From positions 4,073,001 through 4,137,000 of the forward strand of contig NZ_CP100647.1 in NCBI RefSeq assembly GCF_024266585.1: 64,000 nucleotides of DNA, written 5' to 3'. The DNA is from Xanthomonas sacchari (GTDB lineage: Bacteria > Pseudomonadota > Gammaproteobacteria > Xanthomonadales > Xanthomonadaceae). Positions 37,693 through 41,501 of the stretch are shown piece after piece (the first letter of the stretch is position 1; every line of letters starts with the position of its first letter). The notes under the pieces are model-generated. The model made no database searches and was not told where the DNA came from. It was given only the letters and a program-made list of their open reading frames with translations. The position numbers and the translations under genes were made by a program.

Positions 37693-38087
37693 CATCCGAT
37701 CGCATCCGCTCGGCGGACTTCGACGCGCGCCTGCGCGCCGTCCACCAGGCCGGCTTGCGGGCCCTGCCCGCGCCGACCCTGGCGCGGCTGCGCACCGCGC
37801 GCCAGCAGGCCAGCCAGACGCACGTGGCACCGGGCCGCCGCTGGGGCTGGCTGCTGGCGGCAGTGCCGGCGCTGCTCGGTGCGGCGCTGGGCGTGCACCT
37901 GCTGCTGCGCCCGGCCGCGTCGGTGCCGCCCACCACCACCGCCAGCGTCGCCGCCGGCACCAGCGCGGTCGCGACCACGCCGGCGGGCGCGGCCGCCGAC
38001 ACCGACCAGGCCGCGACCGCGATGCTGGACGAAAATCCCGACCTGTACCTGTGGCTGGGCTCCGATACCTCGCTGGCAATGGAATGA
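37689..38087 (+). CDS. Membrane protein next to the sigma gene (DUF3619-like, possible anti-sigma partner)
   Basis: A 132-residue protein: an N-terminal cytosolic part (MTSDRIRSADFDARLRAVHQ), one membrane helix (about residues 53-74: WGWLLAAVPALLGAALGVHL), and an Ala/Thr-rich periplasmic part ending DENPDLYLWLGSDTSLAME. The design (short cytosolic domain, single helix) fits an anti-sigma factor or a DUF3619-type protein. Its coupling to the sigma gene (ATGA) and the following gene (ATGA) supports a joint function. Function is inferred. Confidence 0.7.
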   Translation: MTSDRIRSADFDARLRAVHQAGLRALPAPTLARLRTARQQASQTHVAPGRRWGWLLAAVPALLGAALGVHLLLRPAASVPPTTTASVAAGTSAVATTPAGAAADTDQAATAMLDENPDLYLWLGSDTSLAME

Positions 38088-38587
38088 ACCCGATGACTCA
38101 CCTGATCTCTCTTTCCCTGGCGCTGGCGCTGCTAGCCGGCAGCGCCGTCCCGGCGGCCTTCGCCGCCCCGCCCCCGCCCGGGCCGCCGCCGCCGAGCGCG
38201 GCCGACCGCGACGACGATAGCGGCCCGCCGCTGCCCGACTGGGAACACCTGAGTCCGCAGCAGCGCGACCTGCTGATCGCGCCCCTGCGCCAGCGCTGGA
38301 ACGACGTCCCGCAGCAACGCCGACGCATGTTCGAGCACGCGCAGCGCTGGCAGGCGATGACCCCCGAGCAGCGCGACCGCGCGCGCAAGGGCGCGCGCCG
38401 CTACGAGGACATGACCCCGCAGCAGCGCGAGGAGGCGCGGGTGCTGTTCGACCGCATGCGCGCGCTGCCGCCGGACCAGCGCAAGGCGCTGCGCGACCGC
38501 TGGGAAGCGATGACGCCGGCGCAACGCGCCGCCTGGATCCGCGCCAATGCCGGCCCGGACGAGCTGCCGCCTCCGCCGCCGAAGTAA
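38084..38587 (+). CDS. Exported DUF3106 protein
   Basis: A 167-residue exported protein. Signal peptide (MNPMTHLISLSLALALLAGSA, then VPAAFAA), then a Pro-rich stretch and DUF3106-like repeats of the type MTPEQRDRARKGARRYEDMT, each about 20 residues, ending PPPPPK. It overlaps the anti-sigma-like gene by ATGA. This sigma-DUF3619-DUF3106 operon is seen in related bacteria; the repeats are reminiscent of a metal- or envelope-stress sensor, but that is a guess. Confidence 0.8.
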   Translation: MNPMTHLISLSLALALLAGSAVPAAFAAPPPPGPPPPSAADRDDDSGPPLPDWEHLSPQQRDLLIAPLRQRWNDVPQQRRRMFEHAQRWQAMTPEQRDRARKGARRYEDMTPQQREEARVLFDRMRALPPDQRKALRDRWEAMTPAQRAAWIRANAGPDELPPPPPK

Positions 38588-38706
38588 GCGGGCGGCGCAT
38601 TGCGCAGGCGTCGCTCGAGGCTTGATGGGCATGCCGCGCGGCGCCTCGCCACCGCGCCGCGCGATGACGTCCAACGGCCGCGGAAATAACCTGTAGGAGT
38701 CAACTG

Positions 38707-39630
38707 TCATGCCCCAGCGATAACCGGAGGAGCGTACGGTGCCTGATCGCGCGCGATGGCATTGAGCCAGCGCAGGAACTTGTGCATGCAGGCGACGATG
38801 GCGACCTTGGCCGGCTTGCCGGCCGCGCGCAAGCGCGCGTAGGTGTTGGCCAAGGGGGATTTGGCGCGGATGCTGGCCCAGGTGGCCATGTACAGCACGC
38901 CTCGCACGTCGGCACGGCCGCCTTTGATGCGACGTTGGCCTTTCCAGCAGCCGCTGTCGTGATTGAACGGGGCCAGCCCGACCAGGGCGGCGAGCTTGCG
39001 TGGCGGCAGCGTGCCCAGCTCTGGCAACCGCGCGGCCAGGACCGCGCGCAGGATCGTGCCGAGCCCAGGTACCTTGGGCAAGCTCGAGCAGGTCTTGCCC
39101 TGCTGCTCGATCTCCTGCGTCAATGTCTGGATATGCTGGTTCAGCAGGGCGATCACCTCTCGGCAGCGGTGTTGCACCTTGGCGCTGGTGATGTGTTCCA
39201 GGCGCCGCCGATGGGCATCGCGCTGGCCCACCAGGGTGGCACGCAGGTCCAACAGTTCGCGAAGAGACTGCTGGTGCTCGGGCACCACGGTCGTGGGCGT
39301 GGTCGGGATGTGCTGGGCGGCGATGGCCAGCAGGCGCGCGTCCAGGGCGTCGGTCTTGGCCTGCAGGCCCAAGGCTTGGGCTAGCTTGCGCGGACGATCG
39401 GCGGCCATCCGCACTGCAGGCAGGGCCGCCTCTCGGAGCACCCGCAGCACGGCATGTTCGTAGCCGCCACTGGCTTCCAGCACGATCCGCTCGCAGCCCA
39501 GCTCCACCAGGCGTTGGGCCAGCACACGCTGCCCCTGTGGCGTATTGGGTTGGGTCCAGGCCTGCTCGTCCGGCAGGACATGAATGACCAGTTCGGCCTT
39601 GGATACATCGATCCCGACATAGCGCCGCAT
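38707..39630 (-). CDS. IS110-family transposase (bridge-RNA-guided recombinase type)
   Basis: A 307-residue recombinase. The N-terminal RuvC-like DEDD domain has Asp8 (GIDVSK), Glu52 (VLEASGGYE) and Asp94/Asp97 (KTDALDARLLA). The C-terminal Tnp domain begins near LPKVPGLGTILRAVL and has the catalytic Ser candidate Ser226 in APFNHDSGCWKG, followed by RIKGGRADVRGVLYMAT. These residues match the known D, E, D, D plus Ser pattern of IS621, spaced alike, so the protein looks intact and active. Ribosome site GGAGAA precedes the ATG. Confidence 0.95.
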   Translation of the reverse strand: MRRYVGIDVSKAELVIHVLPDEQAWTQPNTPQGQRVLAQRLVELGCERIVLEASGGYEHAVLRVLREAALPAVRMAADRPRKLAQALGLQAKTDALDARLLAIAAQHIPTTPTTVVPEHQQSLRELLDLRATLVGQRDAHRRRLEHITSAKVQHRCREVIALLNQHIQTLTQEIEQQGKTCSSLPKVPGLGTILRAVLAARLPELGTLPPRKLAALVGLAPFNHDSGCWKGQRRIKGGRADVRGVLYMATWASIRAKSPLANTYARLRAAGKPAKVAIVACMHKFLRWLNAIARDQAPYAPPVIAGA

Positions 39631-39659
39631 AGACGTTCTCCGCAGTAGACTCAGGAACG

Positions 39660-39840
39660 AGAGCACTCCTGCCGATGCCCATGCTTGTGGAGTTCGAGCT
39701 CGCGACTCGGGCAACTGTTCGGGCTGATGAGGCAGGAGATACGGGGTGCGGCGGCGCTGACTCCTACTCGTGCTTGCTGGCACTGCGGCTAAACGGCCTG
39801 CCGCACTCCGCTCTCACCTACAACGATAGACCCTCATTTG
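39660..39840 (-). ncRNA. Candidate bridge RNA of the IS110 element
   Basis: The transposase leader can fold into two large stem-loops. Target-type loop: stem GTGCGGC (39806-39800)/GCCGCAC (39752-39746), with loop segments AGCCGC (39790-39785) matching the left target and GTAGGAG (39767-39761) complementary to the right target CTCCTAC. Donor-type loop: stem CTCCTGCC (39738-39731)/GGCAGGAG (39673-39666), with inner segments ACAGTTG (39718-39712) equal to the element end before the core, and CACAAG (39689-39684) complementary to core+element start CTTGTG. This is the loop order and chemistry known for IS621. Exact ends are not determined. Confidence 0.75.
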
Positions 39841-39847
39841 ACACAAG

Positions 39848-39905
39848 CGGCTTCAGCCACGACGGGCTCTCCCGGGAACGCCGATCGCGACTGATGGCCG
39901 AAGAC
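39848..39905. repeat. Right half of the REP split by the IS110 element
   Basis: CGGCTTCAGCCACGACGGG (39848-39866) continues a REP whose left end TGTAGGAG lies at 38692-38699. A second degenerate unit (CGATCGCGACTGATGGCCG) follows around 39882-39900, so the target was an inverted REP pair that has partly decayed. The rest of the gap up to 40043 shows no gene. Confidence 0.8.
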
Positions 39906-40043: not shown

Positions 40044-41123
40044 TCACGCCGTCCAGCGCGTCTTGGCCAGCAGTTCGTCGTTCCAGTCGTAGGCGATCGC
40101 GCCGTCCTTCAGGAACAGCGCGACGAAGTTGTAGACGTTGCGCGCGTACATTTCGCTGGCATGCACCGCGCCCATGCTGGCCAGGTCCAGCGGCCCGGCG
40201 ACGGTCACGCCGGCATGCTCGATGGTCTCGCCCGGCCGGGTCAGCTCGCAGTTGCCGCCGGTCTCGGCGGCCAGGTCCACCACCACGCTGCCCGGTTTCA
40301 TGCCCTCGACCATCGCCGCGCTGAGGATCTTCGGCGCCGGCCGCCCCGGCACCGCGGCGGTGCACACCACCACGTCGACGCCCTTCAGGTGCTCGGCCAG
40401 CCGGCGCTGCTGCTCTGCGCGTTCCTCATCGGTCAGCTGCCGCGCATAGCCGCCCTCGCCGGCGGCGCTGACCCCGAGGTCGAGGAACTTGCCGCCCAGC
40501 GATTCGATCTGCTCGCGGGTTTCCGGGCGCACGTCGAAGCCCTCCACCTGCGCGCCCAGGCGCTTGGCGGTGGCGACGGCCTGCAACCCGGCCACGCCGG
40601 CGCCGACGATCAGCACCTTGGAGGGGCGGATGGTGCCGGCCGCGGTCGTCAGCATCGGAAAGAAGCGCGGCGCCAGTTGCGCGGCGATCAGGGTCGCCTT
40701 GTAGCCGGCCATGCCGGCCTGCGAACTGAGCACGTCCATCGCCTGCGCACGGGTGGTGCGCGGTAGCCGTTCCAGCGGGAAGGCGACCAGCTGCCGCGCC
40801 TGCAGCGCCGCCGCGCGCGCCGGATCGGCCTGCGGCTGCAGGATGCCGACCACGCCGGTGCCCTCCTTGAGCTGTTCCAGCGCCACCGCCGGCAGCGGCT
40901 GCACGCACAGCACCAGATCCGCCTGCGCCGGGCTGTCGGCATCGGCCAGACGGGCACCAGCGGCCACATAGGCCGCATCGACGAAGCCGGCCGACACCCC
41001 GGCCTGCGGCTCGACCCGCACCTGCGCGCCCAGCGCGACCAGTTTCTTGACCGTCTCCGGCGTGGCCGCCACACGGCGTTCGCCCTGCGCCGACTCCTTC
41101 ACCACCAGCACCTGCACTGCCAT
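40044..41123 (-). CDS. pntAa: NAD(P) transhydrogenase subunit alpha, NAD-binding part
   Basis: The soluble NAD(H)-binding domain I of transhydrogenase. The 359-residue product shows the alanine dehydrogenase/PNT fold: KESAQGERRVAATPETVKKL, the Rossmann segment VLIVGAGVAGLQAVATAKRL, and FDVRPETREQIESLGGKFL, with VVVDLAAETGGNCELTRPGE. Length and start at ATG 41123 match the split form. It is separated from pntAb and pntB by about 3 kb; see findings. Confidence 0.95.
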   Translation of the reverse strand: MAVQVLVVKESAQGERRVAATPETVKKLVALGAQVRVEPQAGVSAGFVDAAYVAAGARLADADSPAQADLVLCVQPLPAVALEQLKEGTGVVGILQPQADPARAAALQARQLVAFPLERLPRTTRAQAMDVLSSQAGMAGYKATLIAAQLAPRFFPMLTTAAGTIRPSKVLIVGAGVAGLQAVATAKRLGAQVEGFDVRPETREQIESLGGKFLDLGVSAAGEGGYARQLTDEERAEQQRRLAEHLKGVDVVVCTAAVPGRPAPKILSAAMVEGMKPGSVVVDLAAETGGNCELTRPGETIEHAGVTVAGPLDLASMGAVHASEMYARNVYNFVALFLKDGAIAYDWNDELLAKTRWTA

Positions 41124-41501
41124 GCGATTCCCCGTGCCTTGCCCGTCGTCCGCGCCGATCCTACAGCGTCCGCACGCCAGGTGGAGGCTGGACGCCCGCC
41201 AGGCGGGCGTCGGCGACCGGGCGTGCCGGGGATGCGAACGCGATCGCGCCCGCCGCGCTCCATGTCGTCGGTGCGGGCACGGTTCTCCCGACCCAGACGC
41301 TCGGCCGAGCCGGGAAGGCCGTGGCGTGCCAGGAAACGCCCAACGCCGAAATGCGACTCCCAACGCGGCATCACGGTAGGAGCGGCTTCAGCCGCGACCG
41401 GTTTTTACCGGTAACGCCTCGTCGCGGCTGAAGCCGCTGCGGGCAGCGCTCCGTCACGTAAGAGGTGGCGGCAGCGATCGTCCGCACCGCCACAGCAGAC
41501 C
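41124..41501. other. Gene-free spacer upstream of pntAa
   Basis: Between pntAa start (41123) and the DUF1631 stop (41502) I see only the REP pair at 41376-41441 and no gene. Confidence 0.6.
41376..41441. repeat. Inverted REP pair
   Basis: GTAGGAGCGGCTTCAGCC...GTCGCGGCTGAAGCCGCTGC: two head-to-head REP units separated by about 20 bp with a pyrimidine-rich loop (GGTTTTTACC). Same type as 34923-34992. Confidence 0.9.

Follow-up and report, generated by a model that had tools for sequence, protein, structure and literature searches.

The IS110-group element IS621 of Escherichia coli encodes a DEDD/Ser recombinase, has a CT core, inserts in REPs and carries a two-loop RNA in its left end. A promoter is formed across its circle junction, and an rG:dT pair is tolerated in the target guide (PMC11208160). 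ISPpu9 of Pseudomonas putida, likewise of the IS110 family, resides in REPs, shows an AG repeat and has a long 5'-UTR that is covered by an antisense sRNA (PMC8450116); the word "antisense" does not occur in the main text of PMC11208160. A guide RNA, the seekRNA, also selects attC sites for ISKpn4 and ISPst6 and REP sites for ISPa11; these are IS1111-type elements with the RNA downstream of the transposase gene (PMC11187229).

The element considered here lies in a window of 64,000 nucleotides of the Xanthomonas sacchari genome. As a relative of IS621 it is clean and unexceptional, of a kind already known. It is 1150 bp long when the CT/AG core is counted at both ends (38698..39847, minus strand). 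Like IS621, it combines a DEDD/Ser recombinase, a CT core and a REP target with a left-end RNA for which two loops are predicted; unlike in IS621, the REP has a different sequence, and the two transposases are only distantly similar. Insertion in a REP, an AG repeat and a long 5'-UTR are common to it and ISPpu9, and the predicted antisense RNA described below would be a further parallel. We regard it as very probable that this is a recently active insertion sequence of the IS110 group whose leader is a bridge RNA steering it into the REP.

The transposase/recombinase gene (tnp; 38707..39630, minus strand; 307 aa) has the domain composition of the IS110 family, with an N-terminal DEDD domain (PF01548) and a C-terminal PF02371 domain with the conserved Ser, and it matches the NCBIfam IS110 equivalog NF033542. 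Sequence matches to PDB chains include ISCro4 (1.1e-18) and IS621 (5.6e-16), and residues D8, E52, D94, D97 and S226 fall within motifs aligned with ISCro4. The ends are laid out as in the IS110 group: a 217-nt leader (39631-39847, minus strand) stands upstream of tnp, while only 9 nt, core included, separate the stop codon from the element end. The RNA is thus encoded upstream of the gene, in contrast to the IS1111-type elements. The core (AG, or CT in the tnp sense) is found at both ends, at 38698-38699 and 39846-39847. The preliminary description had given the gene, its leader and the two core copies correctly to the base. Its placement of the element within a REP also holds, as the window flanks, once joined, read GTAGGAGCGGCTTCAGCCACGAC, which is a REP. 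The first part of this REP, GTAGGAG, occupies 38693..38699 and the remainder, AGCGGCTTCAGCCACGAC, occupies 39846..39863 (both on the plus strand, core included). The insertion point is located between the 3' ends of the convergent ORFs 38051-38587 (plus) and 40044-41363 (minus).

Eleven full copies of the element, plus one distant relative, are present in the X. sacchari genome (G000; a single contig of 4,889,028 bases). All eleven are 1150 bp long and differ from the window copy by 0 to 23 bases; two of them (L001 and L002) are identical, L002 having the sequence of the window copy. The leader is common to the eleven apart from position 27, which is located before the guides. The distant relative is a single IS110-family gene at G000:C1:4604243-4605019 (L012; 26%). 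Distant IS110-family relatives also occur, several to many each, in G008, G009, G010, G017 and G018, and a scan of the contigs of the named genomes gave four distant loci.

Every one of the eleven copies is inserted in the same site, AGCCG-CT-CCTAC in the tnp sense, with identical ends and the CT core on both sides, in agreement with the earlier expectation that other copies should be found at CT-core REP sites. Read on the other strand, this target is GTAGGAGCGGCT, the head of the REP. The 14-mer GTAGGAGCGGCTTC occurs at 214 places in the genome, and its reversed pattern at one. When the joined window flanks were searched against 20 genomes of the genus, the own genome included, an uninterrupted REP at the window locus was recovered, in the same neighbourhood, in five of the 19 other genomes (G006, G007, G010, G011 and G013). 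The sequence across the uninterrupted joint is GTAGGAG in four of them and GCAGGAG in G011. In most of the remaining genomes, among the matches listed, the alignment covers only the reading-frame side or falls in stray REPs. An apparent ordering of REP strands along the chromosome, drawn from the REP places listed for G000, was dropped as an artefact of the listing; for one genome only forward places were listed. The genome has a single Y1/RAYT-like match, at G000:C1:268970-269296 (L115). This gene is not claimed as the maker of the window-type REPs, since GTAGGAG is absent from the 3.3 kb around it.

The leader contains the four guide segments at the positions assigned to them in the preliminary description, all on the minus strand and with left and right guides in the IS621 order. 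In the target loop, the left target guide AGCCGC lies at 39785..39790 and the right target guide GTAGGAG at 39761..39767. In the donor loop, the left donor guide ACAGTTG (39712..39718) has the letters of the right element end (38701-38707), and the right donor guide CACAAG (39684..39689) is the complement of the left end, CTTGTG. Two internal loops with left and right target and donor guides in this order are the arrangement of IS621. When the leader was shuffled 200,000 times with its dinucleotides preserved, the target-loop pair was encountered 210 times, the donor-loop pair 13 times and both together in no case. In sequence, the window leader resembles an IS621-type bridge RNA.

The predicted bridge RNA (39656..39820, minus strand) is given the extent of an Rfam match on the opposite strand. 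An alignment of 15 sequences yields a consensus of two arms with internal loops: a predicted target-binding stem-loop at 39742..39810 and a predicted donor-binding stem-loop at 39666..39738 with the outer stem CTCCTGCC/GGCAGGAG (both minus strand). Changes on both sides of a pair occur in five of the 15 pairs of the target-loop outer helix among 15 relatives, and in 7 of 40 helix pairs overall (shuffled mean 2.8; as many in 0 of 500 shuffles). Four of five covariation measures exceeded all shuffles, and for the fifth, pair types, 39 of 500 shuffles did at least as well; the scoring was made on the alignment from which the structure itself was derived. With the pairing partners slid, at most 52% of the cells remained paired, against 98% in register. 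These values, with structure and test taken from one alignment, point to a conserved paired structure of the IS621 type. The signal came only from the alignment, as the window leader folded alone was no better than its shuffles (z -0.56). The consensus is closed by a predicted GAGAG/CTCTC stem, which has no co-variation support because it is invariant; this stem takes the place of the 5' stem-loop that precedes the two loops in IS621 and that the consensus fold does not show as a separate element. Clear but different donor stems are seen in G132 (CTCCCATC/GATGGGAG), in G154 (CCTCGTCGC/GCGACGAGG) and in the attC type described below (TCGCGCCC/GGGCGCGA). For G005, G018 and G161 the script gave no clear counterpart, the best stems being offset or short (6-8 pairs). 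An arm-swap control of the donor stem discriminates weakly (own mean 8.4, swapped 7.2), because near relatives have arms in common.

A comparison of 67 full copies, the own 11 included, allows the guides to be confronted with their targets. Their tnp identity is 41-100%. They come from searches of 20 genomes of the genus, of which 14 gave a match, and of 198 genomes drawn from the family, of which 23 gave one at 1e-40 (partly the same genomes as in the genus set), and from one Xanthomonas sacchari plasmid (95.4%). Distant matches and fragmentary tnp matches (e.g., G019, G004, G009, two G018 places and G151) were left out. Five left and five right pairs were scored per copy. The left target guide pairs fully, by Watson-Crick or wobble pairs, with its own flank in 64 of the 67 copies. 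Among the 43 copies with the guide AGCCG, the left side is all Watson-Crick in 41 and includes one rG.dT in two. The 13 copies with the guide AGTCG are inserted in AGTCG sites (six) or, through rU.dG, in AGCCG sites (seven), and one of the 13 has a right-side mismatch. All four copies with TGTCG occupy CGTCG (rU.dG), and all four with GGCCG occupy AGCCG (rG.dT). Two true left-guide mismatches out of five were found in each of three copies, one from G154 and two from G161. The right end is readable in 65 copies, with the flank CCTAC in 64 and CCCAC in one; the right target matches in full in 64 of these 65, the single right-side mismatch being that of L077. The targets of all 67 copies are related to REPs. 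IS621 is known to accept an rG:dT pair in its target guide (PMC11208160), and this tolerance is common to both; the relatives of the window element additionally show rU.dG.

At position -3 of the guide, none of the 43 copies with C lies in a T-site, compared with 6 of the 13 copies with U (Fisher 5e-5, kinship ignored). AGTCG sites are rare, with 8 intact against 244 AGCCG sites in G003 and 21 against 359 in G017. In G003, four of the five scorable copies are in T-sites, which make up 12 of 257 sites (P 1.4e-5); L077 was omitted here, its right flank being outside the 12-letter pattern. The corresponding values are one of five copies in G017 (P 0.26) and none of one each in G014 and G015, so that the pooled result for the four U-type genomes (5 of 12 copies, P 1.1e-4) rests almost wholly on G003. 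For the C-type, 0 of 41 scorable copies are in T-sites (L071, with its left flank outside the 12-letter pattern, was omitted from the G008 test); as only 0.53 such copies were expected, this half of the site-preference test is uninformative. Five of the six AGTCG insertions are within REP variants changed in both arms (GCGACTGAAGTCGC), and the AGTCG base therefore predates the insertion. These sequence comparisons support the conclusion that REPs with the matching base are also targets of the U-guide relatives, and in one genome their preferred ones.

It is conceivable that the REP is recognised through protein-DNA contact or as a palindrome, and that the leader match arose as a historical side effect. 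Five IS families include members that target REPs (PMC1525189), which would agree with such recognition, as would the constancy of the right target guide, which does not vary in the REP clade and so gives no co-variation. The left guide and the left flank, however, change together among the relatives, as the preliminary description had anticipated for the target loop; each loop has its left and right guide on opposite sides, ordered as in IS621, and the guides of a sister clade match attC. Recognition without the RNA is accordingly given a very low probability. The preferred reading, already put forward in the preliminary description, is that the leader is the bridge RNA programming the element for the REP, and it is supported by the sharing of one site and by the co-variation of guide and flank.

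The sister clade is separate from the REP clade (support 100/99; tnp identity 35-39%) and is inserted at (C)TAAC[GA]C-CT-GA[AG]TTAAGCCG...GTTAG..., a sequence that resembles an integron attC site. Fourteen candidates were examined; both ends were found in 11 (L086-L091, L099 and L101-L104), the right end only in L095 and neither in L096 and L114. In the 11 copies the guides pair with five bases on each side when inspected by eye, seven fully by Watson-Crick pairs and four with one wobble. Guide and target have changed together in the right guide of L088 and in the left guide of three G148 copies. An integron integrase above the curated cut-off is present in all seven attC-clade genomes checked and is less than 5 kb from an attC-clade copy in four of them (G071, G104, G148 and G205). 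An IS110-type element targeting attC is mentioned neither in the passages of PMC11187229 nor in the titles and abstract beginnings of 30 of the 32 papers matched by a literature search. Another IS110 clade, with CTTGTATG ends (L092-L094 and L105-L111), has short targets around CT-CAG that are not repeat-like.

By analogy with IS621, the element would leave as a circle, and its joined ends would form a promoter from which the leader is transcribed. The first RNA loop would then pair with the REP site on both of its strands and the second with the joined element ends, and the DEDD/Ser recombinase would swap strands at CT. The parts of the predicted promoter are a -35-like TTGACT in the right end (38698..38703, minus strand), which would belong to a promoter only in the circle, and a -10-like TATCGT in the left end (39823..39828, minus strand), 17 nt away across the junction. 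According to the sequence scan, the joined ends would read TTGACT-17-TATCGT, or 9 of 12 letters, and a promoter across the right end, core and left end is a feature of IS621. The scan found no promoter of this kind in the integrated form in the window. Among the 11 source groups whose ends carry TTGACT, 10 have 9 of 12 letters with the 17-nt spacer and G015 has 8; these figures are letter counts made without a shuffle control. The right ends of L031, L081 and L082 read TTG-CT and that of L002 reads TTGA-CT, with an extra A before the core. The extra A improves the -35-like box that the lineage of the window element has at the circle junction, and the scan detected no junction promoter in G018, G154 and G161, the ends of which are without it.

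The opposite strand of the leader matches Rfam RF02234, sX15, over the full length of the model (1-159) at 39656..39820 (plus strand). The score, 30.5 bits, is below the curated gathering threshold of 55, with E values of 0.0076 and 0.0018 when the search space was small. In X. campestris pv. vesicatoria, 24 sRNAs were reported from dRNA-seq (PMC3771888). RF02234 is described in Rfam as "Xanthomonadaceae sRNA sX15". Presumably, sX15 is one of these 24. Among 31 loci scanned (E up to 0.1), sX15 was reported in 22, always opposite to the tnp strand. The scores are highest in Xanthomonas sp. Leaf131 (L050; 152.3 bits) and X. arboricola (L048; 149.6), with the Rfam match at 1308-1466 on the minus strand in both, and amount to 100.1-122 in six attC-type loci, 58.1-61 in G005/G018/G154/G161, 41.8-47.1 in L023, L025-L028, L062, L080 and L084, 36.8 in L024 and 35.0 in L056. 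The gathering score is reached or exceeded in 12 of the 31 other loci (L030, L031, L048, L050, L081, L082 and L086-L091). No sX15 was reported at E up to 0.1 in L002, L012, L021, L033, L049, L085, L093, L094 and L110; for L002, which has the window sequence, this fits the larger search space of the 31-locus scan.

A putative antisense RNA would start near 39656, behind the -10-like TAGACT (39646..39651, plus strand), which is kept in most relatives. TANNNT, a loose motif counted without a chance control, precedes GAGAG by 6-10 nt at the expected start in 23 of 27 leaders; L050 carries TAGGCT, missed through an N, and three leaders of the CTTGTATG clade lack TANNNT. No clear -35 was apparent in the scanned leaders (2-5 of 6 letters). 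Less probable still than recognition by protein is that the leader mainly serves as an antisense RNA of the sX15/Asr9 type tuning transposase translation, its guide role being secondary or lost in the window copy: the strand of sX15 in the 22 loci and the window, the -10-like motif and the ISPpu9 sRNA Asr9, which lies over the tnp 5'-UTR and reportedly raises translation (PMC8450116), would suit it, but the guide must have been functional until recently to account for its co-variation with the target and for the 11 copies in one site, and the two roles are compatible with each other. With the leader read as a bridge RNA, the strand of sX15 and the antisense sRNA of ISPpu9 make an antisense RNA of the sX15 type plausible as its partner.

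More tentatively, and with doubt prevailing, two overlapping complementary RNAs may be envisaged: the bridge RNA, transcribed from the circle-junction promoter, and the sX15 antisense RNA, from a promoter at the bridge RNA 3' end that is active also in integrated copies. The "anti-bridge" RNA of the integrated copies would neutralise the guide and limit further jumps.

The element family represents a natural experiment in which guides differ by single letters and insertion sites differ to match, wobble included, and the sister clade extends it to guides for integron attC sites. By its position, Rfam sX15 is linked to the antisense strand of IS110 bridge-RNA loci, and antisense control of bridge RNAs thereby becomes directly testable. 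If such control is real, the anti-bridge RNA would let an RNA-guided recombinase keep its own copy number in check.
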